Source: Nitrospira sp.
GTDB lineage: Bacteria; Nitrospirota; Nitrospiria; Nitrospirales; Nitrospiraceae
Length of the DNA: 46,011 nt
Direction of reading: 5' to 3'
Assembly (NCBI GenBank): GCA_024998685.1
Contig: JACOEH010000040.1
Coordinates: 1-46,011, forward strand
Within the stretch, counting starts at the first letter, position 1. Each line of letters opens with the position of its first letter. The notes under the pieces are model-generated. The model did no database searches and was not told the origin of the DNA. It worked only from the letters and a program-made list of their open reading frames with translations. Below are positions 366 to 14,743 of this stretch, in pieces. The position numbers and the translations under genes were made by a program.

Positions 366-614
366 TTAAGGTTGTCGGTTGGGATGGATATGTCGGAACC
401 GCCCAGCAAGAATTTCTTCAGGCTCTGAGTCGACAATTATAGCTTTTGCTGGGCACACCACAATACATTGGCTTTCACCAAAAAAACCATAGCATTCAGT
501 GCAATTCTTTTGGTCGACTACAGGACGGGGGTCCCCGGCACTAATCGCTTCGTTGGGACATTCCCAGATACACGCCCCACACATCACGCAAGAGTCTATT
601 ATCCTTACAGACAT
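366..614 (-). CDS. Ferredoxin with two 4Fe-4S clusters (YfhL type), RiPP operon
   Basis: This is an 82-residue cytoplasmic ferredoxin. The first cluster motif is C9-x2-C12-x2-C15-x3-C19-P. The second is C38-x2-C41-x8-C50-x3-C54-P. The eight-residue insertion in the second motif is typical of the YfhL/Allochromatium type of low-potential ferredoxin. It is the last gene of the minus-strand operon, 48 bases after the PqqD-like gene. A GGAG lies about 12 bases before the ATG. Radical SAM enzymes need one-electron reduction of their clusters, so this protein is probably the electron donor to the maturase encoded upstream. The ferredoxin identification rests on the motifs; the partnership is inferred from position. 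Confidence 0.85.
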   Translation of the reverse strand: MSVRIIDSCVMCGACIWECPNEAISAGDPRPVVDQKNCTECYGFFGESQCIVVCPAKAIIVDSEPEEILAGRFRHIHPNRQP

Positions 615-662
615 TTTATTTTATCACTCCACCCCGAAGGTGCAACGCTCGTTCAATCCTTA

Positions 663-932
663 CTACACTTTTCGAAGTTCAATTAGATCCGCCAATTTTA
701 GCGACTCGACAAACTTTTCCACAGTGTCCCTGAGAGCTTTAGAATTCTCCTGGGGATACATTGCGTGCAATCGTTTCACAAGGTTGTCTAAGTCAGAGCC
801 TTCGCATAACCGCCAAACTTGTGCAGCAGTCGTATTAAGTCGAAAGAATTCAACAGTTTTCGTATTGCAAAGCATAGTTGCTCCGTCAACTTCATCCGTC
901 ATCACATATGAACTCTTCTTCAATCTAGTCAT
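663..932 (-). CDS. PqqD-family peptide chaperone (RiPP recognition element)
   Basis: This 89-residue protein has the PqqD look: a short winged-helix domain with the region around residues 27-42 (VEFFRLNTTAAQVWRL) and a C-terminal amphipathic helix ending in a short hydrophobic tail. PqqD-type proteins bind the leader of a precursor peptide and present it to a radical SAM enzyme. The start ATG overlaps the stop of the upstream radical SAM gene by four bases (ATGA), which implies translational coupling and a matched supply of the two proteins. Known for the family: this small size and this gene neighbour. Inferred: its target is the Gly/Cys-rich peptide at 2498-2701. Confidence 0.8.
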   Translation of the reverse strand: MTRLKKSSYVMTDEVDGATMLCNTKTVEFFRLNTTAAQVWRLCEGSDLDNLVKRLHAMYPQENSKALRDTVEKFVESLKLADLIELRKV

Positions 933-2380
933 AGTCCACCTTCTAAACGCCGATTCTTGCTAGATCCGATCAAGGTCTCAAGCGGAATATGTATCTCCTC
1001 AGCGCTCAATGAGGTCTGGAAAGCCGCTTTGCGTGGACCGGGTATGCCACCGGTGTTATCCCAAGCTTGAACCTCAAAAGTCCTCCTAAGATAGGCGCAA
1101 AAGAGAGGATTCGCACGTTCATAGTTTTTAGTAAATGAAACGTGAATGCCTCGGCAACCACCGCCACAGTGGTTCTTGACGATGCAGGTCCCGCAAGGCT
1201 TCAGCGTCTCAGCAACCTGGCCACGAATTTTGTTTAACTTGATATGATTCTGGTAGATGTCCAGGAGGTTCCTCTCTCGAATATTATCAGTGCGGTATTC
1301 TGGATACTGCAAAAGTTTACATGGATATACCCATCCTTCAGGATCGACTGAGACCTCAGATAGACCAGCTCCACAATGGTTTCGAATAATACGCTTATTG
1401 TTATAAGTACCCTCTGGTGACACTTCAACTGTTGAGGCAGCTCGCAACTCACGTTTTGCAAGCGAGATAAAATCATTCAATCGGAGTGAGTCCTCAGGAG
1501 TAACATGATCTAGAGTGTTTTCTCCGCCTCGTCCCATAGGAAACTTGGGAATAATGCGCAATTCGGCGATGTTCCTACCATGGGCAAACTTGAGGAGTTC
1601 ATCTAGGTCCGACATTCCTGAGTGTGATACAACCGCGTTCACGTTCACGTGAACGCCAGCTTCTATTAGGAGCTCGATAGCTTGTACGGCTCGCAGCCAC
1701 GACCCCTTCCCTCGATTAAGGTCGTGATGGTGAGCAAGGCCGTGGTCCAAACTGACGGTAACATATGAAAACGATTCAGCCACCCGATCGATGTTCTCTC
1801 TTAAGATGAAGTGGCCGTTCGTTATAACATTTGTCTCCAACCCGCTGTTTTTGGAGTACTGCGCAAGGTCCAAGAGATCTGTCCGTGTAAACGGCTCTCC
1901 TCCAGTAAAAATGAACGTCCCGACTTTGGCCTCCACCGCCTGATCAATCAACTGGTGTCCTTCTTTTGTCGACAGTTCCTGCGGCCGCCGAACAGTGGCG
2001 TCCTGGTAGCAATAACGGCATCGCAGATTGCATGCTTGTGTACAAATCCAATACACGGTAGTGAGGGAGTGCGCAGCATACCTCACTGTCGGTTCAACAG
2101 GGCACTGATCTAGATAGAGTAGCCGCCTGAATATAGAGTAGGCTAAGATCTGGCTTGTACGTTCAGCAGAGGCTTCGCCTGTGAAAGCAAAACGCTTGGA
2201 AATGTGGTCGGTAAGGAGGGTGCGATCTCTTCCTGCTCGAAGCCAACGTAGAACCTCCGATGTCTGTTCATCGATCCGCTCCCATGAATTGATAGCAGGA
2301 TTGTATGCTAGAACTTCGCCGCTTCTATAAATGAGAGCGAGTCTGTTTGGCACAACCACACGCTTTAGGAGCGAATCCAT
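929..2380 (-). CDS. Radical SAM/SPASM peptide maturase
   Basis: This 483-residue enzyme has three parts. Residues 1-100 form a divergent N-terminal domain that may be a second leader-binding module. A radical SAM barrel starts with C117-x3-C121-x2-C124 and continues with a GGEP motif (TFIFTGGEPF) near residue 160. The C-terminal SPASM region carries many cysteines (CGAG near 335, then PCGTC, HCGGGC and a final FC near 425) that would hold auxiliary Fe-S clusters. Enzymes of this layout modify ribosomal peptides, for example by forming thioether or C-C crosslinks. AGGAAGG sits about seven bases before the ATG. The precursor gene lies 117 bases upstream and the PqqD-like gene overlaps the 3' end. 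The reaction cannot be read from the sequence. Confidence 0.88.
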   Translation of the reverse strand: MDSLLKRVVVPNRLALIYRSGEVLAYNPAINSWERIDEQTSEVLRWLRAGRDRTLLTDHISKRFAFTGEASAERTSQILAYSIFRRLLYLDQCPVEPTVRYAAHSLTTVYWICTQACNLRCRYCYQDATVRRPQELSTKEGHQLIDQAVEAKVGTFIFTGGEPFTRTDLLDLAQYSKNSGLETNVITNGHFILRENIDRVAESFSYVTVSLDHGLAHHHDLNRGKGSWLRAVQAIELLIEAGVHVNVNAVVSHSGMSDLDELLKFAHGRNIAELRIIPKFPMGRGGENTLDHVTPEDSLRLNDFISLAKRELRAASTVEVSPEGTYNNKRIIRNHCGAGLSEVSVDPEGWVYPCKLLQYPEYRTDNIRERNLLDIYQNHIKLNKIRGQVAETLKPCGTCIVKNHCGGGCRGIHVSFTKNYERANPLFCAYLRRTFEVQAWDNTGGIPGPRKAAFQTSLSAEEIHIPLETLIGSSKNRRLEGGL

Positions 2381-2450
2381 CCGTTTTCCTTCCTCAAACC
2401 CGCTTGATCAGTTCTGCATGAAACGCGCTCACATTGAAGTGCACACGCTT

Positions 2451-2483
2451 GGGCCACACGAAAAAAGAATCTTCGTGAAGCCC
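2451..2483 (-). promoter_or_regulatory. Hairpin between precursor and maturase genes
   Basis: In the transcript, a stem of twelve positions (ten paired, two mismatched) closes a loop of about nine bases. The arms read GGGCTTCACGAA and TTCGTGTGGCCC. It lies in the 117-base gap after the precursor peptide gene. Hairpins in this position in other peptide operons act as leaky terminators or RNA stabilisers, so that the peptide is made in excess of its enzymes. That role is an inference here. Confidence 0.5.
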
Positions 2484-2497
2484 AAGTTGCGCAGCAG

Positions 2498-2701
2498 TCA
2501 TTCGCTCAGGACCCCTCGTGCTTCAAGCAAGTTGAGGGCTAGCCGAGCATTACCGCCTCCTCCACCTCCTCCCCCGCCACCCGAACAGCCACATCCGCAA
2601 CCACAAGTTCTGGCTGCGAGGTCGGGCGCCGAAAAGTCGACACGCGCCAAAAGGGGTTGAATAAACTTGGCGATATCATCGGGAATTGCTTTTTCTGCCA
2701 T
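2498..2701 (-). CDS. Putative RiPP precursor with Cys-Gly repeat and Gly10 core
   Basis: This 67-residue peptide has three parts. Residues 1-32 form an acidic/hydrophobic leader. The core has C33, C35, C37 and C39 alternating with glycine, then S40 and ten glycines (41-50). A follower (51-67, NARLALNLLEARGVLSE) completes it. The ten glycines use all four codons in mixed order except for a few neighbours, so this is not a simple triplet expansion and the protein sequence appears to be selected. A near-perfect Shine-Dalgarno (AAAGGAGGTGAAA) precedes the ATG, suggesting strong translation. The radical SAM/SPASM, PqqD and ferredoxin genes follow. Gly-rich radical SAM targets are known (the GrrA family), but I do not recognise this Cys-Gly plus poly-Gly core. 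Confidence 0.8.
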   Translation of the reverse strand: MAEKAIPDDIAKFIQPLLARVDFSAPDLAARTCGCGCGCSGGGGGGGGGGNARLALNLLEARGVLSE

Positions 2702-3740: not shown

Positions 3741-4161
3741 ATGGATTGCTTAAAAGACCGGCGCTGCTGGATCGCGTTCCTTGCTCTCCTTCTTCTTACG
3801 ATGTCGGGCTGTACGGGAGCAACGTTCATAGGGGCCAATCTGCCTACCTATTTCGACAAACATAGCGGTGGTGCATGACCGAGCCTATGGACCTGAGCCT
3901 TCACAGAAACTCGACATGTATGTTCCTGCCGATCCCAAGAGCAGGCCAATGGAGGTCATTGTCTTTTTCCATGGCGGACGCTGGACCTATGGAACAAAGG
4001 AAGATTATTGATTCATTGGTGCAACATTCGCCAAGGTGGGATTTATCGACTACAGAAAATATCCCTCGGTGCGATTTCCACGGTTTGTGCAAGACAGTGC
4101 CCAAGCTCTCGCCTGGGTTTCTACTCACATCGCTGAATTTCACGGTGATCCCGCGCGGATC
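3741..4161 (+). pseudogene. Broken alpha/beta hydrolase (esterase) lipoprotein gene
   Basis: The ATG at 3741 opens a lipoprotein signal (LLLLTMSGC lipobox) that stops after 45 codons at 3876. The story continues in the next frame with YGPEPSQKLDMYVPAD and VIVFFHGGRWTYGTKEDY, then stops again. It resumes in a third frame with a stretch resembling FVGxxxAxxGF, YRKYPSVRFPRFVQDSAQAL and HGDPARI. These are consecutive pieces of one BD-FAE/carboxylesterase-type hydrolase with the HGG oxyanion motif. At least two frame changes and a small deletion are needed to join them. The nucleophile elbow (GxSxG) and the rest of the gene are missing. The homology ends about 24 bases before the 3' end of the convergent FapF-like gene, which suggests a recombination join. 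Confidence 0.75.
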
Positions 4162-4184
4162 CGTCGTGGAACGCTGCAATATCA

Positions 4185-5468
4185 CTATTTCCACCAAGAG
4201 GACAACGGGAAAGCCGTCGGGATCCGGAGCGTCACTTGGAGGTCGGGCGCTTCACGTGTCGCGCCGATTCCGACGACGAAGTTGATAAAGCTGCGATCAC
4301 TCCATCGATAGGAACCGCCGATGAGCAAGACCCCGATTTGAATGGCTTGCGGCGTGGTGGTGAGGAGCAGGTTAGAGGCAGACGTGGGTTTCGAAAAGAC
4401 GGTATGGTCGTACGCCAGCGTCAATGATAACTTCTCATTCAGCGACACTCCGAGCCCCACATTGGCATTGCCGCCGCTTCCAGGATCGACACGCCCGACA
4501 TTGCCGCCGACATCGCGCGGCATATTATAAATAAAACTCACACTGCTGAAGAGGACGACCGGATCGCTGGGGAACAGCATGGTCAGGCCCGGTTGAAAAA
4601 TATAAAAGCCGGATCCCGTCGGTAAGTCCGTCTGCACCCCTGTGATCGGATCTCTCGGCACTTCAAATGGGCCCCTTCCGCTGACGCTCTTGAATCGTGC
4701 GAACCCGATGAAATACGGTGTATCCGGCCCTCCTTGGTTGAGCTGAAATCGACCGGTTGTTTCAACATCTCCGAGACCCGAACCGTTGAAGGTCGAGATG
4801 GTATCAGCCTGCGATGGGGTGGCAATGGGTCGCTGCGTGATCGAGTCCTCCCGATAGAGAAAGGGCACACGCACCTCAACCTCCATCCGATTCGTCAATC
4901 CGTAGCGACCGACCAGTGCTGCGGTATAAATATCCCGGCTTATACCTTGGATATTGATGAACCCGGCCGTTAGCGCCGGAACGATGGTGAACCCGGTCAA
5001 CGTCACCCGATTGCTACTCAGATGGGCGAACTGCAGATACGGCTCCACGATGAGCGTGCCCTTGGGCGTCAGCACCCCGGCACCAGGCAAATCGAAGGTG
5101 CGAGTCATCCATGAAGGAAGAATCTCTTGTGGACTAGCCGGAGCGACCCCGACCGGACCGCCAGGTTGCTGACGTTCTGAGGAGCGCTCTCGCGCGTCGG
5201 ACTCGTCCCGCTCGCCGCGTGGAGGTTCAGCTGCCTGGGCGGTCTGTTCGTTTGCGACGATGTTTGCGGCGATATAGTGCGGCGTATCCGCCGACCATCG
5301 AGAGCGAGGTGCTTGAAGGTTCGTGGATTGGCTGATATTTAACCGATCAACGTGATTGTCGGCGACCCCAGGTTGAGCTGCATTGATCTCGGAGGGAGGC
5401 AGGTTCCCGACGAGTCCAAGAGCGAAGGCGAGCCAGAACGTTCTATAAGTTTGTCTTACAGCTCTCAA
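4185..5468 (-). CDS. FapF-like outer-membrane beta-barrel, amyloid subunit exporter
   Basis: This 427-residue protein starts with a Sec signal (residues 1-31). A low-complexity, charged linker follows (32-115, with RGERDESDARERSSERQQ). A barrel of amphipathic strands begins at about residue 123 with FDLPGAGVLTPKGTLIVEP. The segment 'GVLTPKGTLxVEPxxQxxHxSSNRV' and later 'ARYGLTNRMEVEVRVPF' match the FapF/phenol-MetA-type barrel family as I know it. FapF forms the pore through which Fap amyloid subunits leave the cell. It is the last gene of a five-gene operon, ten bases after the FapE-like gene, as FapF is last in Pseudomonas fapABCDEF. The linker replaces the helical N-terminal part of Pseudomonas FapF and looks unlike it. 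Confidence 0.75.
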   Translation of the reverse strand: MRAVRQTYRTFWLAFALGLVGNLPPSEINAAQPGVADNHVDRLNISQSTNLQAPRSRWSADTPHYIAANIVANEQTAQAAEPPRGERDESDARERSSERQQPGGPVGVAPASPQEILPSWMTRTFDLPGAGVLTPKGTLIVEPYLQFAHLSSNRVTLTGFTIVPALTAGFINIQGISRDIYTAALVGRYGLTNRMEVEVRVPFLYREDSITQRPIATPSQADTISTFNGSGLGDVETTGRFQLNQGGPDTPYFIGFARFKSVSGRGPFEVPRDPITGVQTDLPTGSGFYIFQPGLTMLFPSDPVVLFSSVSFIYNMPRDVGGNVGRVDPGSGGNANVGLGVSLNEKLSLTLAYDHTVFSKPTSASNLLLTTTPQAIQIGVLLIGGSYRWSDRSFINFVVGIGATREAPDLQVTLRIPTAFPLSSWWK

Positions 5469-5478
5469 TACTTCGCCT

Positions 5479-5988
5479 TCAATGTCGGATCGCCTCTATG
5501 CTGGCCTGAGAGAGCGCGTTTCCAAGGTCGAGCGCTCGGGCCCACGTCAGCGCCGACACCGTGGCATTGATGACGGTATGGCTCTGAATGGCTTGATTAT
5601 CCAGTGAATTCTGAATGACGGTCGTCAATGGCGGAAGCGAGGACAAGTTATGAGGGACTGAATTACCACCCCCATGTTGGACGAGCGTGAAGGCATCGCC
5701 CGCCTTGTCGGCCAATCGCGACAAGTCTGGAATATTCAGTACGGTTGAATTGATCAGTTTATCATTGAGGAACACGCTTCGCTCGATTCCAAATGACATC
5801 ATGGGACCATCCGGGTGATGCTGAAATCCACCGCGCATACTATCCAAGACTTCTTCGTTCACCGGCGTCAGGAGTGTAAAGTCCTCAATGCTCTCGTATG
5901 CCATAGTCGGAGTGACGGGCGACATACCCAGGAGAACGAACAGCAGAGCTGTCCTCATCTGGCCAATCGATTTCAACAAGAGGCGCAT
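5479..5988 (-). CDS. FapE-like secreted protein with GG processing motif
   Basis: This 169-residue protein has a Sec signal ending near A30. A short acidic segment ends in VNEEVLDSMRGG (G53-G54), which looks like the double-glycine leader cut by C39 peptidases. After the GG comes a soluble domain. Residues 124-143 read VIQNSLDNQAIQSHTVINAT, closely matching the C terminus of the small subunit encoded at 6693-7037. The start codon overlaps the C39 peptidase stop by one base (TAATG), so the two are translationally coupled. Position between the C39 peptidase and the barrel is that of fapE. The FapE assignment rests on operon order; sequence similarity to Pseudomonas FapE was not testable here. 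Confidence 0.6.
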   Translation of the reverse strand: MRLLLKSIGQMRTALLFVLLGMSPVTPTMAYESIEDFTLLTPVNEEVLDSMRGGFQHHPDGPMMSFGIERSVFLNDKLINSTVLNIPDLSRLADKAGDAFTLVQHGGGNSVPHNLSSLPPLTTVIQNSLDNQAIQSHTVINATVSALTWARALDLGNALSQASIEAIRH

Positions 5989-6680
5989 TAGAAATCCCTC
6001 CCTCCCGGGCGAAAGAGAACGATGTTGTTCAAGGTATCCGGACTCAGCGGCCGGCCGAGCGGGGACATCGGACGGACGCTCCAGTCTCGGGCCGTATTGA
6101 ATTCACCACGTGTCGGTGAATCATGGATGACAAACACCACCCGGCTGGGCCATGAGGCTTCAAACTGCTCGCGCGGCACGACACGTAATCCGACTGCCGG
6201 ATCGCCGAGCAGCACCTTATCGCCCCGCATGCCTTTCACCACCACAAAATGGTGATACCCCTTATCGACCATTAGGACGATCGCCGGAATGCCGGCCTTC
6301 GAGAGCTCGTCCAGGGAAACTTCAAACCCGTCCGCTGGGTAACCCTGAGCTTCCAAAAATCGCTTCATGTCCAGGAGCGAAAACCCTTCCTTCTGGATCT
6401 TTTCCTGGTCACCATGGTCGAACATCGTGCGAAAGGTGACCTCCTCAGTCATTGGATGACCATAGTGATAAGTCAAGAGGGTGGCGACGGCGGCCGAACC
6501 ACAACTATAGTCATATTTCTGAAGGATGACGGATCGGACCTTCAGTTCGCGCATGCTCCAGACTTGGATCAACATCCGGCTCCCTACTCCTGGAGTCACC
6601 TCCACCGTCGCCGCCATCGCCGCTGTCGCGATCGACAGCAGCACTACAACCGTCCATCCGATGATCTGTTTCGTGGGCAT
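5988..6680 (-). CDS. Exported C39-family cysteine peptidase (FapD-like)
   Basis: This 230-residue protein has a signal peptide or membrane anchor at residues 8-24. A single C39 papain-like domain follows with Gln54 (oxyanion), catalytic Cys60 in YDYSCGSAA, His143/His144 in GYHHFVVVKG and Asp160 in LLGDPAVG. All three catalytic positions are intact. Bacteriocin C39 domains sit on the cytoplasmic side of ABC exporters and cut after GG. This one has no transporter and should act in the periplasm, as FapD does in the Pseudomonas amyloid operon. It starts twelve bases after the small subunit gene and overlaps the FapE-like gene. The two neighbours carrying GG motifs are its likely substrates. Confidence 0.85.
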   Translation of the reverse strand: MPTKQIIGWTVVVLLSIATAAMAATVEVTPGVGSRMLIQVWSMRELKVRSVILQKYDYSCGSAAVATLLTYHYGHPMTEEVTFRTMFDHGDQEKIQKEGFSLLDMKRFLEAQGYPADGFEVSLDELSKAGIPAIVLMVDKGYHHFVVVKGMRGDKVLLGDPAVGLRVVPREQFEASWPSRVVFVIHDSPTRGEFNTARDWSVRPMSPLGRPLSPDTLNNIVLFRPGGRDF

Positions 6681-6692
6681 TCGAAGCCTAGT

Positions 6693-7037
6693 TTATTTCA
6701 TCGTTAAGTTCAGGACCGTGCCGCTCTGAATAATTACGTTATTGCCGGAATTCTGGATGACGATCGGCAGGCCAGCCGCCCCGGCAAACGCATTGCCGTT
6801 GATTGTATTGTTGCCGGTCACGTTGTCTATGGCGGCATTGTTGTTCAACTTGGCGTTCAGGAAATTCGCATTGATCGTGACCGGGCCGGTATCCGTTCCT
6901 CCCCGTTGGGATTCTAATTGGGCAATAGGGATGGGTTTGCCCCAGAACGTCACTTCAGGATTTTCCGGCGAGCCGGCATGCGCGATGCCCGCGCAGAGCC
7001 CCAGGACGGTCACCACTGATGAGAAGAAGATGCGCAT
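6693..7037 (-). CDS. Small Fap-like amyloid subunit with GG processing motif
   Basis: This 114-residue exported protein has a signal peptide cut near A21. It is followed by PIAQLESQRGG (G46-G47), a double-glycine-type motif. The mature part is rich in Asn, Ala and Gly and contains N-x-N-x patterns (INANFLNAKLNNNAAIDNVTG). It ends with VIQNSGNNVIIQSGTVLNLT at residues 93-112, a motif shared with its two neighbours. Composition and position suggest a minor subunit or nucleator like FapB. GAGAGGG precedes the ATG. The gene follows the large Gly-rich gene after 68 bases and precedes the C39 gene by twelve. The amyloid nature is inferred from the operon and composition. Confidence 0.65.
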   Translation of the reverse strand: MRIFFSSVVTVLGLCAGIAHAGSPENPEVTFWGKPIPIAQLESQRGGTDTGPVTINANFLNAKLNNNAAIDNVTGNNTINGNAFAGAAGLPIVIQNSGNNVIIQSGTVLNLTMK

Positions 7038-7105
7038 GTTGCCCTCTCTAGCCGTAAATGGTGCAGTGACGCTGGAGGAGCATCAGCTCCTCCAGCTAGA
7101 TCCTG

Positions 7106-8050
7106 TTAGTGAACCGTGACGTTCGCCATCGTGGTGACACCGACCTGCTGAAGGGCCGCGATCCCCGTGTTCTGAATGGCTACAGTCACGCCGGCTGCGC
7201 CGCTAAATCCAGACAGCGTATTCGAGGCATTGAAGGTCCCGGCGCTTCCGCCGGTCGCATCCCCGCCTCTGCCGCCATTGCCACCATCCCCACCATTTGC
7301 AGTCGCGGTCGCAGCGCCGCTGGTCGCAGTTCCGCCTGCCCCACCATGTCCACCGGTTGCCGCGCCACCATTGCCCCCGGTTGCATTACCGGCCTCCCAA
7401 TCGCCATCTCGGGAGCTACCGTTATTGGGGCCGCCGTTGGCATTGCCGTCGCTAGAAGTGCCACCGTTGGACTGGCCACCATTGGTGCCGTTGGAAGTAT
7501 TGCTGCCAGAGGTAGTGGCATAGCCACCATGACCGCCCTTGGCATAGCCACCATCGCCACCGTATGAGTAGGCTTTCCCAGAATGGGCTTTGGCTTCGGC
7601 GTAGCCACCATCGCCACCCCGGCCTCCATAATTCCCATTATTGTAGGCATACCCTCCAGTATTGCCGATATCATGGACATTGTTATGTGACACATATCCA
7701 TCAAGTTTAGTGGCATTGACGATTTTGGTCTGGTTGAAGGAGTTGCTCACATCCACATCGAGCTTGGTGTACGCCGTGGAGTGATTGTTGGCTGCAGCCC
7801 CAAAGGCTCCGTCGTTGTTGGCTTCTCCCTTCCAGATTGTTTTTGTCTTGTCGATGTCAATCTTCACATCTTTATCAATCTTCACATCTTTTTTGACGTT
7901 GAAGCTGTCATCGATCTTCACTTTTGGATCGTGCGTTCCGTTGGGGGGAGCAGGGGTGCGTGGTCTGGAAGGAACGTCTTGGGCCCCTGCGAAGGGCGAC
8001 AAGCCGAAGGCCAATGCCACCGCTGCCGTCGTGATCATCACTTTCTTCAT
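7106..8050 (-). CDS. Large Gly-rich secreted protein, probable major amyloid subunit
   Basis: This 314-residue protein begins with a signal peptide ending near Q24 and a proline-rich stretch. A Lys/Asp heptad-like segment (KKDVKIDKDVKIDIDKTK) and an Asn/Ser-rich domain follow. From about residue 130 to 275 it consists of Gly-rich repeats (GGDGGYA, GGHGGYA, GGNGGAATGG). It ends with AGVTVAIQNTG and a tail that aligns with the C termini of the two other subunits. No GG-leader motif was seen. It is the first gene of the operon, with AGGAGG upstream of ATG. Length and order fit the main fibre protein (FapC role), although Pseudomonas FapC repeats are Gln/Asn-rich rather than Gly-rich. Confidence 0.65.
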   Translation of the reverse strand: MKKVMITTAAVALAFGLSPFAGAQDVPSRPRTPAPPNGTHDPKVKIDDSFNVKKDVKIDKDVKIDIDKTKTIWKGEANNDGAFGAAANNHSTAYTKLDVDVSNSFNQTKIVNATKLDGYVSHNNVHDIGNTGGYAYNNGNYGGRGGDGGYAEAKAHSGKAYSYGGDGGYAKGGHGGYATTSGSNTSNGTNGGQSNGGTSSDGNANGGPNNGSSRDGDWEAGNATGGNGGAATGGHGGAGGTATSGAATATANGGDGGNGGRGGDATGGSAGTFNASNTLSGFSGAAGVTVAIQNTGIAALQQVGVTTMANVTVH

Positions 8051-9051: not shown

Positions 9052-10044
9052 CTATGGCTCCGCGTGATTGCAAGTGGTCACGGACGAGTCGACGGGGGAT
9101 GGTACGAGTTTTTCCAGGTTATAAGCCCGAAGTTTTCTGTACAAGGTCGTTCGACTCACTTCCAGCTCGCGCGCCACACGGGTCAAATTCCCTCGATGCA
9201 TGCTGATCGCCTTGATGATCAGTTCTACTTCAATCCGGCGGTGCGCAGCCCGTATGGAATCTAGAGAGTCTTCAGGTTGGACCGTCTCGCAAGTCAAATC
9301 CAAGTCGCGAGGCGTAATGTCCTCGCCTTCCGCCATGACGACGGCTCGTCTGACCTTATTACTGAGCTCCCGCACGTTGCCGGGCCAGGCATAGGACTGA
9401 ATCGCTTGAATGGCCTCAGAGGTATAGCGCCGTATCGGCTTCTGATAGAAGGCTGCAGCGCGCTTGAGAAATATCATGGCCATGAGGGAGGTGTCCTCCC
9501 CTCGCTCCCGAAGCGGAGAAAGATGAATGTGCATCACTTCCAATCGATAATAGAGATCCTCTCGAAACAGGTTCTTATCGATGGCCGCCTTGAGATCGAC
9601 GTTGGTCGCCGCGATCACGCGCGCATTGACGCGGAGAGTCTGTTGTCCACCGAGCCGCTCAAACGTGCCCTCCTGCAAAAAACGGAGCAGCTTGACCTGC
9701 AGCGGCGGAAGCAGATCGCCGACTTCATCGAGAAACAGGGTGCCGCCATCCGCCGCTTCGATCTTCCCTTTCTTTTGCTGCACCGCCCCGGTAAAGGCTC
9801 CCCGTTCATGTCCGAAGAGTTCCGACTCCAACAATGTTTCAGGGATGGCAGCGCAATTAATCGGCACAAAGGGGCCTTGCTTCCGCAGGCTGCGGTCATG
9901 AATCGCCTGGGCGGTGAGTTCCTTGCCCGTACCGGTTTCGCCGGTAATCAACACCGGCATGTCGGTTTTCGCCACCTTCCGGACCAGATCGAAGACCGCG
10001 CGAATGGAGGGACTTGTTCCGACCATTTCTTCTAATACTTCCAT
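9052..10044 (-). CDS. Sigma-54 activator without receiver domain (PspF-like architecture)
   Basis: This 330-residue protein consists of an AAA+ sigma-54 interaction domain and a Fis-type helix-turn-helix. Walker A is GETGTGKE (residues 35-42), the sigma-54 loop is GAFTGA (82-87) and Walker B is GGTLFLDEVGD (100-110). Arginine fingers are in the expected FREDLYYRL region, and the DNA-binding helices are in LTRVARELEVSRTTLYRKL near 286-305. An in-frame TGA lies two codons before the ATG, so no N-terminal receiver or sensor domain is encoded. Activity must therefore be controlled by expression or by a partner, as PspF is by PspA. It is transcribed in the same direction as the Fap-like operon and lies just upstream of region B. 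Confidence 0.85.
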   Translation of the reverse strand: MEVLEEMVGTSPSIRAVFDLVRKVAKTDMPVLITGETGTGKELTAQAIHDRSLRKQGPFVPINCAAIPETLLESELFGHERGAFTGAVQQKKGKIEAADGGTLFLDEVGDLLPPLQVKLLRFLQEGTFERLGGQQTLRVNARVIAATNVDLKAAIDKNLFREDLYYRLEVMHIHLSPLRERGEDTSLMAMIFLKRAAAFYQKPIRRYTSEAIQAIQSYAWPGNVRELSNKVRRAVVMAEGEDITPRDLDLTCETVQPEDSLDSIRAAHRRIEVELIIKAISMHRGNLTRVARELEVSRTTLYRKLRAYNLEKLVPSPVDSSVTTCNHAEP

Positions 10045-12186: not shown

Positions 12187-13140
12187 TCAGAGGTCCAGTG
12201 ACAAATCCCATTTCTCTCCGAGCTTCAGATCCCAAAACTCAGGAGTATACTTGACAATCCCTGCTGCGGGGGTGAAGGTCAGTTCACCAAAATAGATGCG
12301 TCCACTGACATTATATAAGTCCACCCGGACATAGCCAAACCCGACCGACAGCTTCGCGGCCAGTGCCAGCATCTCGTCAAGATTTGCGGGCTTCGGTAAC
12401 CACGGCCGGGCTACACATTTGTCCTTATAGGTCACCTCGAGGAGATTCCAGGTCGTATCGAAGATCGGCCAGATATCTTGTGTTGTGTCTTGTATATGAC
12501 TGCGCACGAGAATCTGATCCGGCGCGCCGTTGAAACAGTAGCACTTATAGTTGAATGGTGCATTACCATCCTGATCTTTCAGATATTCCTCGATCACAAT
12601 TCGTGGCTTGATACCATAGTACTGATACTCACGTCCGTGCCAATAATAGTTGCACGCCAACCATTCCGAGACCGTCCGGATGATCTCGTCTCGATCAGCC
12701 TTGCCTCTAACAATGATGACTTGTCCAGCGGCGTGGTTCGGCTTGATCACATACTCCTCCGGCAGCCGGTCAAACGGAATCGCGCGCGGGTCATTCCCAT
12801 GCCATAAGAGCTTGATCAAATACTTCTCACCCACGGTCTTCGCCACATGCGCGCGCACCGCGTACTTATCAGCCAACTTCGTAAACCGAAAAGGCATGTC
12901 GCCTCGATTCCAGGTAACCATGCGCCAGAACAGCTTCTCCGTAAAGGTCTGGGGATTCGTCAGATTGAGCGGTTTGCCGTGGATCCGAACATATCTGCGC
13001 AACAGGAAGGCCTCGCCTTCGGAGCGCCGCATGACCCGGCGTCTGATGCCTCGGTATTGATCGACAAGACCATGAAGCCATGTCGCTCGTAACTTACCTT
13101 TGAGAGCTGCGATTGCTATTGGTCGGACAAGATGCTTCAT
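12187..13140 (-). CDS. TupA-like ATP-grasp protein, copy 1
   Basis: This 317-residue protein matches the ATP-grasp TupA-like family. Diagnostic segments are LTNPQTFTEKLFWRM (residues 59-73), LADKYAVRAHV, LPEEYVIKPNHAAGQVIIVRG (ATP-binding strand with the Lys and His), IVIEEYLKD and the metal/ATP end GFGYVRVDLYNVSGRIYFGELTFTPAAG. TupA was named for teichuronopeptide synthesis. Relatives are found in polysaccharide and cell-surface gene sets and probably ligate an amino acid or similar group to a sugar or peptide. A close paralogue lies 650 bases upstream (13793-14743). The two are so alike through residues 45-125 that recent duplication is likely. Confidence 0.8.
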   Translation of the reverse strand: MKHLVRPIAIAALKGKLRATWLHGLVDQYRGIRRRVMRRSEGEAFLLRRYVRIHGKPLNLTNPQTFTEKLFWRMVTWNRGDMPFRFTKLADKYAVRAHVAKTVGEKYLIKLLWHGNDPRAIPFDRLPEEYVIKPNHAAGQVIIVRGKADRDEIIRTVSEWLACNYYWHGREYQYYGIKPRIVIEEYLKDQDGNAPFNYKCYCFNGAPDQILVRSHIQDTTQDIWPIFDTTWNLLEVTYKDKCVARPWLPKPANLDEMLALAAKLSVGFGYVRVDLYNVSGRIYFGELTFTPAAGIVKYTPEFWDLKLGEKWDLSLDL

Positions 13141-13792: not shown

Positions 13793-14743
13793 TCAACTGT
13801 CCAGTGCCAAGTCCCACTTCTCCCCGAGCTTTACATCCCAATGGTCGGGACTAAACTGGAAAATTCCCGCGCCCGGCGTTAGAGTTAATTCGCCGCAATA
13901 GATCCGCCCATTGGTGTTGTACAAATCGACGCGGATGAAACCGAATCCCTGCGACAGTCGCCTTGCCAACTCAAACATGTGTTCAAAGTACGTGGGCTGT
14001 GCGATGGGAGGTCGAGTCGCTTTCTTCCTGGTGTGGAGATCCAATTGATTCCATTGGGCGTCAAAAAAAGGGTTGATGTCGTGGGCATGGTTATCCACTT
14101 GGATGACTGCTGGAGCTCCTCCGAAACACCAAAATCTGTAATCGAGGAGCTCACTGTCATCCTCATCCTGGCTTTTCAAATACTCCTCGATCATAATCTT
14201 GGGTCTAATCCCATAGTATTGATATTCACGGGCCTGCCAATAATAATCTTTGGCCAACCAACCCGATACTTGACGGATAATTTCCTCGCGATTTGCCTCG
14301 CCTCGGACAATGATCACTTCCCCACTGGAGTGGTTCGGCTTGATCACGTACTCGGCCGGCAGCCGGTCAAAGGGGATCGTGCGCGGATCGCTTCCCTGCC
14401 ATAAGAGCTTGATCAGATACTCCTCACCTATCGTTTTCGCCACATGCGCGCGCACCGCATACTTATCGGCCAGTTGTCGAAACCGCGGAGGCATGTCGCC
14501 TCGATTCCAGGTAATCATGCGCCAAAACAGCTTTTCCGTAAAGGTCTGGGGATTCGTCAGATTGAGCGGTTTGCCATGAATCCGAACATATCTGTGCAAC
14601 AGCACGGCTTCGCCTTCGGATCGCCGCATGACCCGGCGCTTGATGTCCCGATAGTGGACGACGAGATCACGCAGCCAGGTGTCTCGCAGCTTGGCGCGAA
14701 GCGCTGCGGTTCCTGATGTATGGACGGCTTGATCCATTCTCAC
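13793..14743 (-). CDS. TupA-like ATP-grasp protein, copy 2
   Basis: This 316-residue paralogue of the protein at 12187-13140 has the same landmarks: LTNPQTFTEKLFWRM, LADKYAVRAHV, LPAEYVIKPNHSSGEVIIVRG, IMIEEYLKS and GFIRVDLYNTNGRIYCGELTLTPGAG. The centre (residues 195-255) differs most, including a DEDDSELLDYRFWCFGGAP segment. The substrate side may therefore have diverged while the ATP site stayed fixed. Both copies are transcribed to the left with no other genes nearby. The substrate cannot be named from sequence; a role in modifying a cell-surface polymer is a family-based guess. Confidence 0.8.
   Translation of the reverse strand: MRMDQAVHTSGTAALRAKLRDTWLRDLVVHYRDIKRRVMRRSEGEAVLLHRYVRIHGKPLNLTNPQTFTEKLFWRMITWNRGDMPPRFRQLADKYAVRAHVAKTIGEEYLIKLLWQGSDPRTIPFDRLPAEYVIKPNHSSGEVIIVRGEANREEIIRQVSGWLAKDYYWQAREYQYYGIRPKIMIEEYLKSQDEDDSELLDYRFWCFGGAPAVIQVDNHAHDINPFFDAQWNQLDLHTRKKATRPPIAQPTYFEHMFELARRLSQGFGFIRVDLYNTNGRIYCGELTLTPGAGIFQFSPDHWDVKLGEKWDLALDS

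Follow-up and report, generated by a model that had tools for sequence, protein, structure and literature searches.

A RiPP operon at a contig end in Nitrospira

The window that we analyzed is a 46,011-nucleotide stretch of DNA from a genome of Nitrospira sp., and it starts at base 1 of its contig. Near this end lie four ORFs, all on the minus strand, which make up a RiPP operon in the order precursor, maturase, PqqD-type chaperone and YfhL-like ferredoxin. The precursor peptide gene (2498-2701, minus; 67 aa) was identified from its ORF, from codon and Shine-Dalgarno analysis and from its position adjoining the maturase. After a gap of 117 bp it is followed by the gene for a StsB-like radical SAM/SPASM maturase (929-2380, minus; 483 aa), assigned from Pfam, NCBIfam, a phylogenetic tree and an AlphaFold2 model. 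The maturase gene shares an ATGA overlap (929-932) with a gene for a PqqD-family discrete RRE chaperone, which is StsC-like (663-932, minus; 89 aa), and 48 bp further on is the gene for a YfhL-like dicluster 4Fe-4S ferredoxin, a candidate electron donor (366-614, minus; 82 aa). Purine-rich ribosome sites precede all four genes, and the domains that Pfam finds in their products are Radical_SAM, SPASM, PqqD and Fer4. An earlier note on this DNA had described four genes in this order on one strand with ATGA coupling, and all of these ORFs are present; its reading of the locus as a RiPP operon is borne out by the protein families, by the gene order, and by StsB-type relatives whose genes have the same order.

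The contig ends 365 bp beyond the ferredoxin gene, so genes for export and for a protease may be missing from the locus. There is no transporter gene among the ORFs of the window in these 365 bp, and a contig-end overlap search to continue the cluster found no second copy of positions 1-365. Searching the organism's own genome gave no convincing second copy of the precursor or the maturase, and an Rfam search gave no match.

Directly upstream of the operon, on the plus strand, is a broken alpha/beta-hydrolase-like gene that is split over frames (3741-4311) and that might be the edge of an insertion or of a decaying region. The minus strand at 4185-8050 contains what we take to be a possible Fap-type functional amyloid operon. 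It comprises genes for a Gly-rich repeat protein with a signal peptide (7106-8050), a small protein with IQNSGNNVIIQS (6693-7037), a C39 peptidase (5988-6680; PF03412, E = 7e-22), a 169-aa protein with VIQNSLDNQAIQS (5479-5988) and a 427-aa possible outer-membrane protein, and after it there is a sigma-54 activator gene (9052-10044); of all these proteins, Pfam matched the peptidase and the activator alone. Two tandem TupA-like ATP-grasp genes (PF14305) are located at 12187-13140 and 13793-14743.

The precursor peptide

The precursor has the sequence MAEKAIPDDIAKFIQPLLARVDFSAPDLAART-CGCGCGCSGGGGGGGGGG-NARLALNLLEARGVLSE, in which a leader (residues 1-32) and a 17-residue follower (residues 51-67) flank the core CGCGCGCSGGGGGGGGGG (residues 33-50; 2552-2605, minus strand). 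Within the core, the four Cys residues C33, C35, C37 and C39 alternate with Gly, and are followed by S40 and then by an uninterrupted run of ten Gly, G41-G50 (CGCGCGCS-G10). The earlier description of 67 residues, with four Cys alternating with Gly, ten Gly, a leader and a follower, was exact.

The gene has a strong Shine-Dalgarno sequence, AGGAGGTGA (2708-2716, minus), 6 nt ahead of its ATG. Its 14 Gly codons cover all four synonyms (GGA 5, GGT 4, GGC 3 and GGG 2) and Tandem Repeats Finder reported no repeat at the core, so the Gly run looks maintained as protein sequence, and the DNA is not a microsatellite. The strong Shine-Dalgarno, the use of all Gly codons and the lack of a tandem repeat argue for the precursor being a real gene. 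Its codon bias is flat (0.006 bits per codon) and is uninformative as coding evidence. The DNA pattern CGCGCGCxGGG turned up in viral contigs in seven unrelated chance frames, none of which adjoins a radical SAM gene. Because Cys-Gly strings can arise by chance in unrelated frames, the identity of the precursor rests on its context and not on the string alone. The precursor had no match above chance in Pfam and NCBIfam and no match up to E = 10 to the StsA models NF045558 and NF045559, and it was not found in plasmids.

Pattern comparison points to FIQP (2654-2665, minus) as a leader motif that an RRE may recognize. The pattern W-x-x-P-x6-F-x-A is common to five actinobacterial precursors, and the window leader has F-I-Q-P-x6-F-S-A with the same spacing. 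A fit to the pattern is seen in 0.11% of shuffled leaders, the pattern having been widened from W to F after the window leader was seen. A profile of the leaders of StsA relatives, run against all 566 ORFs of the window, did not retrieve the precursor. Since the pattern is post hoc and the profile retrieval failed, leader homology stays unproved, and the likeness of FIQP to the WxxP motif of StsA is suggestive, a lead and not proof. In the StsA leader, KPxWxxP is the binding site of StsC, which is counted as a sactipeptide RRE (PMC12710340).

The maturase and its partner proteins

The maturase matches the Pfam domains PF04055 (E = 1e-25) and PF13186 (E = 3e-7). The best of 93 NCBIfam families for it is NF045574, the StsB sactipeptide maturases, with 275 bits against a curated cut-off of 625 bits, and the next family scores 153 bits; it is approximately 31-34% identical to StsB proteins. 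The next-best families are TIGR04053, mycofactocin and heme d1 enzymes. Its score against the mycofactocin MftC model TIGR03962 is 151 bits, below the cut-off of 265, and TIGR04340 (ACGX; cut-off 400 bits) is absent from its best 25 families, of which the lowest scores 72.7 bits. We found no close homologs of the maturase in viral contigs.

The CxxxCxxC radical SAM motif is CNLRCRYC (C117, C121 and C124; 2009-2032, minus), and the SPASM region contains cysteines C336, C354, C396, C399, C405, C409 and C428 (1097-1375, minus; from PF13186 and the sequence). The three Cys of the radical SAM motif and the seven SPASM Cys are invariant in an alignment of ten sequences. An AlphaFold2 model, made with nine sequences, is confident for the barrel, of moderate confidence for the N-terminal domain and poor for the SPASM part (pLDDT under 50), and its best matches in the PDB are SuiB, SkfB and CteB, all of them RiPP enzymes. 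The modeled N-terminal domain (residues 15-84; 2129-2338, minus) is predicted to be a beta3-alpha3 domain of PqqD/RRE-like topology. Pfam gives no PqqD match to these residues; a relative from Acidobacteriota (maturase L105a) carries PF05402 at this place.

The discrete PqqD-fold protein that is encoded with the maturase (PF05402, E = 1e-10; NF033530, E = 1e-9) provides an RRE/PqqD partner, and in NCBIfam it is nearest to the PqqD chaperones of lasso-peptide and GeoRSP systems. The ferredoxin scores 75.6 bits against NF033683 (YfhL), for which the cut-off is 86 bits. We found no CxxCxxCxxxCP ferredoxin near any of the 11 relatives that we examined.

Relatives in other phyla

Streptantibioticus cattleyicolor has a full StsB (738 bits to NF045574), and the gene order there is a small gene ending ...WIKPDITSAEPQMLPPACSCGCGSGGGGGAGS, then StsB, PqqD and ABC transporter genes; its StsA-type core is CSCGCGSGGGGGAGS. 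Among the matches listed, the same gene order occurs with the small genes WVKPEMRSDEFEAGMSCSCSCGAFSGAGSG... in Streptomyces sp. MJM8645 and WTTPEIRETEFSAEMSRAMCACGCAGGAGAGAGSAN in Micromonospora. At least five further actinobacteria (L010-L014) have longer precursors, ending CxCGxWSGSG or close to it, beside StsB maturases, and NF045559 recognizes the one precursor of this type that was scanned. The L010 precursor carries the aroma-sacti leader domain NF045560.

Outside this group, whole-genome searches turned up an Acidobacteriota genome with four precursors of the form LNPMAFIPED...CxCGW..G.G.G.CxCGW. Its locus L105 (4599-10160) contains two tandem StsB-like maturases, one of them with a fused PqqD domain, together with an ABC exporter and a transglutaminase-like gene; the single L105 precursor that was scanned fits no NCBIfam model. 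Among the matches listed, a Chloroflexota contig has a small gene with MGKCGAGINCAGGGGQCGAGVNCAGGGGICGAGVNCAGS by a StsB-like maturase. In a Pseudomonadota genome the precursor consists of a Tat-like signal and then repeats of MCGSGADCAGGGG; this signal, RRGFLK, is odd for a RiPP precursor. The best family for all four maturases from Acidobacteriota, Chloroflexota and Pseudomonadota is NF045574, with scores under its cut-off. Myxococcota gave no match. At the loci L116 in Pseudomonadota (4857-6487) and L015 in Chloroflexota (4984-6463), the precursors are made of repeats of CGSGADCAGGGG and CGAGVNCAGGGG, respectively; they lie beside paired maturases, which are sister in the tree (98/97). Loci from Chloroflexota and Thermodesulfobacteriota (L091-L098, L102 and L103) were set aside because they group with MftC in the tree.

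We applied a fixed rule for a Cys/Gly-rich small ORF upstream, written after the cases had been seen: such an ORF is present for 10 of 12 StsB-like maturases and for 11 of 87 control SPASM maturases (p ~1e-6).

Phylogenetic position and class

The main maturase tree (32 sequences, LG+C20) recovers the window maturase as the sister of the actinobacterial StsB clade, outside that clade, with support (94/92) just below the usual mark. A quick tree of 102 sequences agrees with the sister placement (SH-aLRT 88). Constraining the window maturase, StsB and the enzymes from Acidobacteriota, Chloroflexota and Pseudomonadota to group together is not rejected (p-AU 0.33), and a constraint that joins the window maturase to mycofactocin MftC comes at a cost of 20.8 log units (p-AU 0.063). 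A family search and a maturase tree were the check proposed in the earlier note, and among the families and sequences compared they place StsB nearest, with the family cut-off missed and the support of the sister position slightly low.

A precursor with Cys encoded next to a radical SAM/SPASM maturase, as seen here, is the pairing of the sactipeptide class. The earlier note had not recognized the core as belonging to a described class, and this was right in one respect: when tested, the operon fails the curated StsA and StsB scores, so we do not file it as a member of either family. The StsA-type core in S. cattleyicolor, on the other hand, is clearly alike, so the core has a precedent and a class of this kind has been described. 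The operon has the look of a new and unusual branch within the known sactipeptides and not of an entirely new kind of system. In 2023, Precord et al. reportedly found that StsB of Streptomyces sparsogenes forms sactionines, and are said to have predicted further sactipeptide groups; the operon may belong to one of these.

Origin of the operon

We take the host to be a member of the Nitrospiraceae, since a DEAD-box gene of the window has 82% identity to its counterpart in a Nitrospiraceae genome and no more than 47% to the other genes compared. In the phylum, none of the other genomes searched (246 or 396) contains the maturase (at E 1e-50, or for the family at 1e-55). The operon has a GC content of 0.49, compared with 0.55 elsewhere in the window, and codon usage in the maturase, pqqD and ferredoxin genes departs from that of the window's other long genes. 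The lower GC, the deviant codon usage and the presence in a single genome of the phylum suggest that the operon was probably imported by horizontal transfer.

Proposed modification and alternatives

We think it fairly probable that the locus is a StsABC-type sactipeptide operon, in which PqqD would bind the leader and Cys sulfurs would be joined to Gly alpha-carbons. The PqqD-type protein would bind the precursor leader, perhaps at FIQP, and present the precursor to the StsB-like radical SAM/SPASM enzyme, while the low-potential ferredoxin would supply electrons to the [4Fe-4S] cluster of the maturase. A 5'-deoxyadenosyl radical would then abstract alpha-hydrogens from core glycines and the Cys sulfurs would close onto the Gly alpha-carbons, giving a string of small rings of the type Cys-S-C(alpha)-Gly. 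The genes, their homology and their order are observed; from what is known of StsABC and of sactipeptides we infer that the leader is bound, that electrons are passed on, that the link is to the alpha-carbon and how the rings are arranged. Thioethers from Cys to the Gly alpha-carbon had been a guess in the earlier note, and it gains from the nearest family being one of sactipeptide maturases, a support by homology. Gly has no side-chain carbon, so a Gly acceptor could be linked at its alpha-carbon and nowhere else, and in streptosactin a linkage from Cys to the Gly alpha-carbon is established (Cys31-Gly34; PMC8172795). The putative product would most likely be a secreted bacteriocin-like or signaling peptide. 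It is possible, if rather doubtful, that the operon defines a new sactipeptide subclass, with each of the four Cys attached to the alpha-carbon of a Gly in the core or ten-Gly run, as a dense alpha-thioether ladder inside a precursor flanked by leader and follower, with a dedicated ferredoxin, and with StsB-like maturases and Cys/Gly cores spread over at least five phyla.

SPASM enzymes that are close in sequence can differ in chemistry, and membership of the radical SAM family does not by itself fix the reaction. The maturase might instead form non-alpha thioethers to Ser, Asn or the follower, as in ranthipeptides, or form or cleave C-C or C-N bonds, leaving Cys free or as disulfides. Ser40 and Asn51 stand on either side of the Gly run, the next-best families are TIGR04053, mycofactocin and heme d1 enzymes, and the fold matches are mixed, SuiB making a Lys-Trp link and SkfB and CteB making thioethers. 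We nevertheless regard such chemistry as unlikely, given that the nearest clade is StsB, a named sactipeptide maturase, and that the core is almost all Cys and Gly, which makes Gly, without a beta-carbon, the likeliest acceptor.

The CGCGCGC string might bind soft metals by chelation, PqqD-type partners are known from cofactor pathways too, and one relative has Cys-Gly repeats with a Tat-like signal. All of this would suit a peptide made by the maturase that binds metal or serves as a redox cofactor, with a role more like that of PQQ or mycofactocin than that of an antibiotic or a signal. Against this, the portion of the locus on this contig contains no dedicated oxidoreductase or cofactor genes and the tree prefers StsB over MftC, which leaves this role quite improbable. 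Least likely of all, and in our view very unlikely, is that the operon is real but is an orphan or decaying import that makes no product, its transporter and protease being absent. The presence of the maturase in 1 of 396 genomes of the phylum, the resemblance of the next gene upstream (3741-4311) to a broken hydrolase, and the lack of a transporter in the 365 bp that follow the ferredoxin gene would fit decay; against it, the four frames are intact with good ribosome sites, the catalytic Cys are all kept, and the contig end can explain the missing downstream genes.

Comparison with known systems

Mycofactocin biosynthesis (MftB/MftC) resembles the operon in having a PqqD-like partner and a SPASM maturase, at a second tier of similarity (151 bits), but its precursor is unrelated, the maturase score is below the cut-off and the tree does not favor grouping with MftC. 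The predicted ACGX system (TIGR04340) also has a SPASM enzyme and is named for a Cys-Gly repeat; there is no ACGX repeat in the window precursor, and the two were compared at the level of the maturase. Streptosactin (GggA/GggB, from streptococci) is likewise a radical SAM/SPASM sactipeptide with a bridge from Cys to the Gly alpha-carbon (PMC8172795). Set beside the operon by description, it differs in having two 4-residue rings and no C-G alternation, and its cluster consists of a Rgg/SHP-regulated precursor, enzyme and protease.

The closest system is StsA/StsB/StsC of actinobacteria (NF045558, NF045559 and NF045574), with which the operon shares the order precursor-maturase-PqqD, a Cys/Gly-rich core and perhaps an aromatic-xxP motif in the leader. 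No ABC transporter is seen in the window operon, which lies at the contig end. Compared with the relatives, the window has a more extreme core, with pure C-G alternation and ten Gly; this core is internal in the precursor with a follower of 17 aa, and it is accompanied by an extra gene for a ferredoxin, encoded alongside the maturase and absent from all relatives examined. StsB-type sactipeptide biosynthesis reaches beyond actinobacteria, to Nitrospiraceae and, through the relatives, to Acidobacteriota, Chloroflexota and Pseudomonadota, and a core made of Cys, Gly and one Ser is a very simple substrate on which to study how a SPASM enzyme chooses Gly alpha-carbons.
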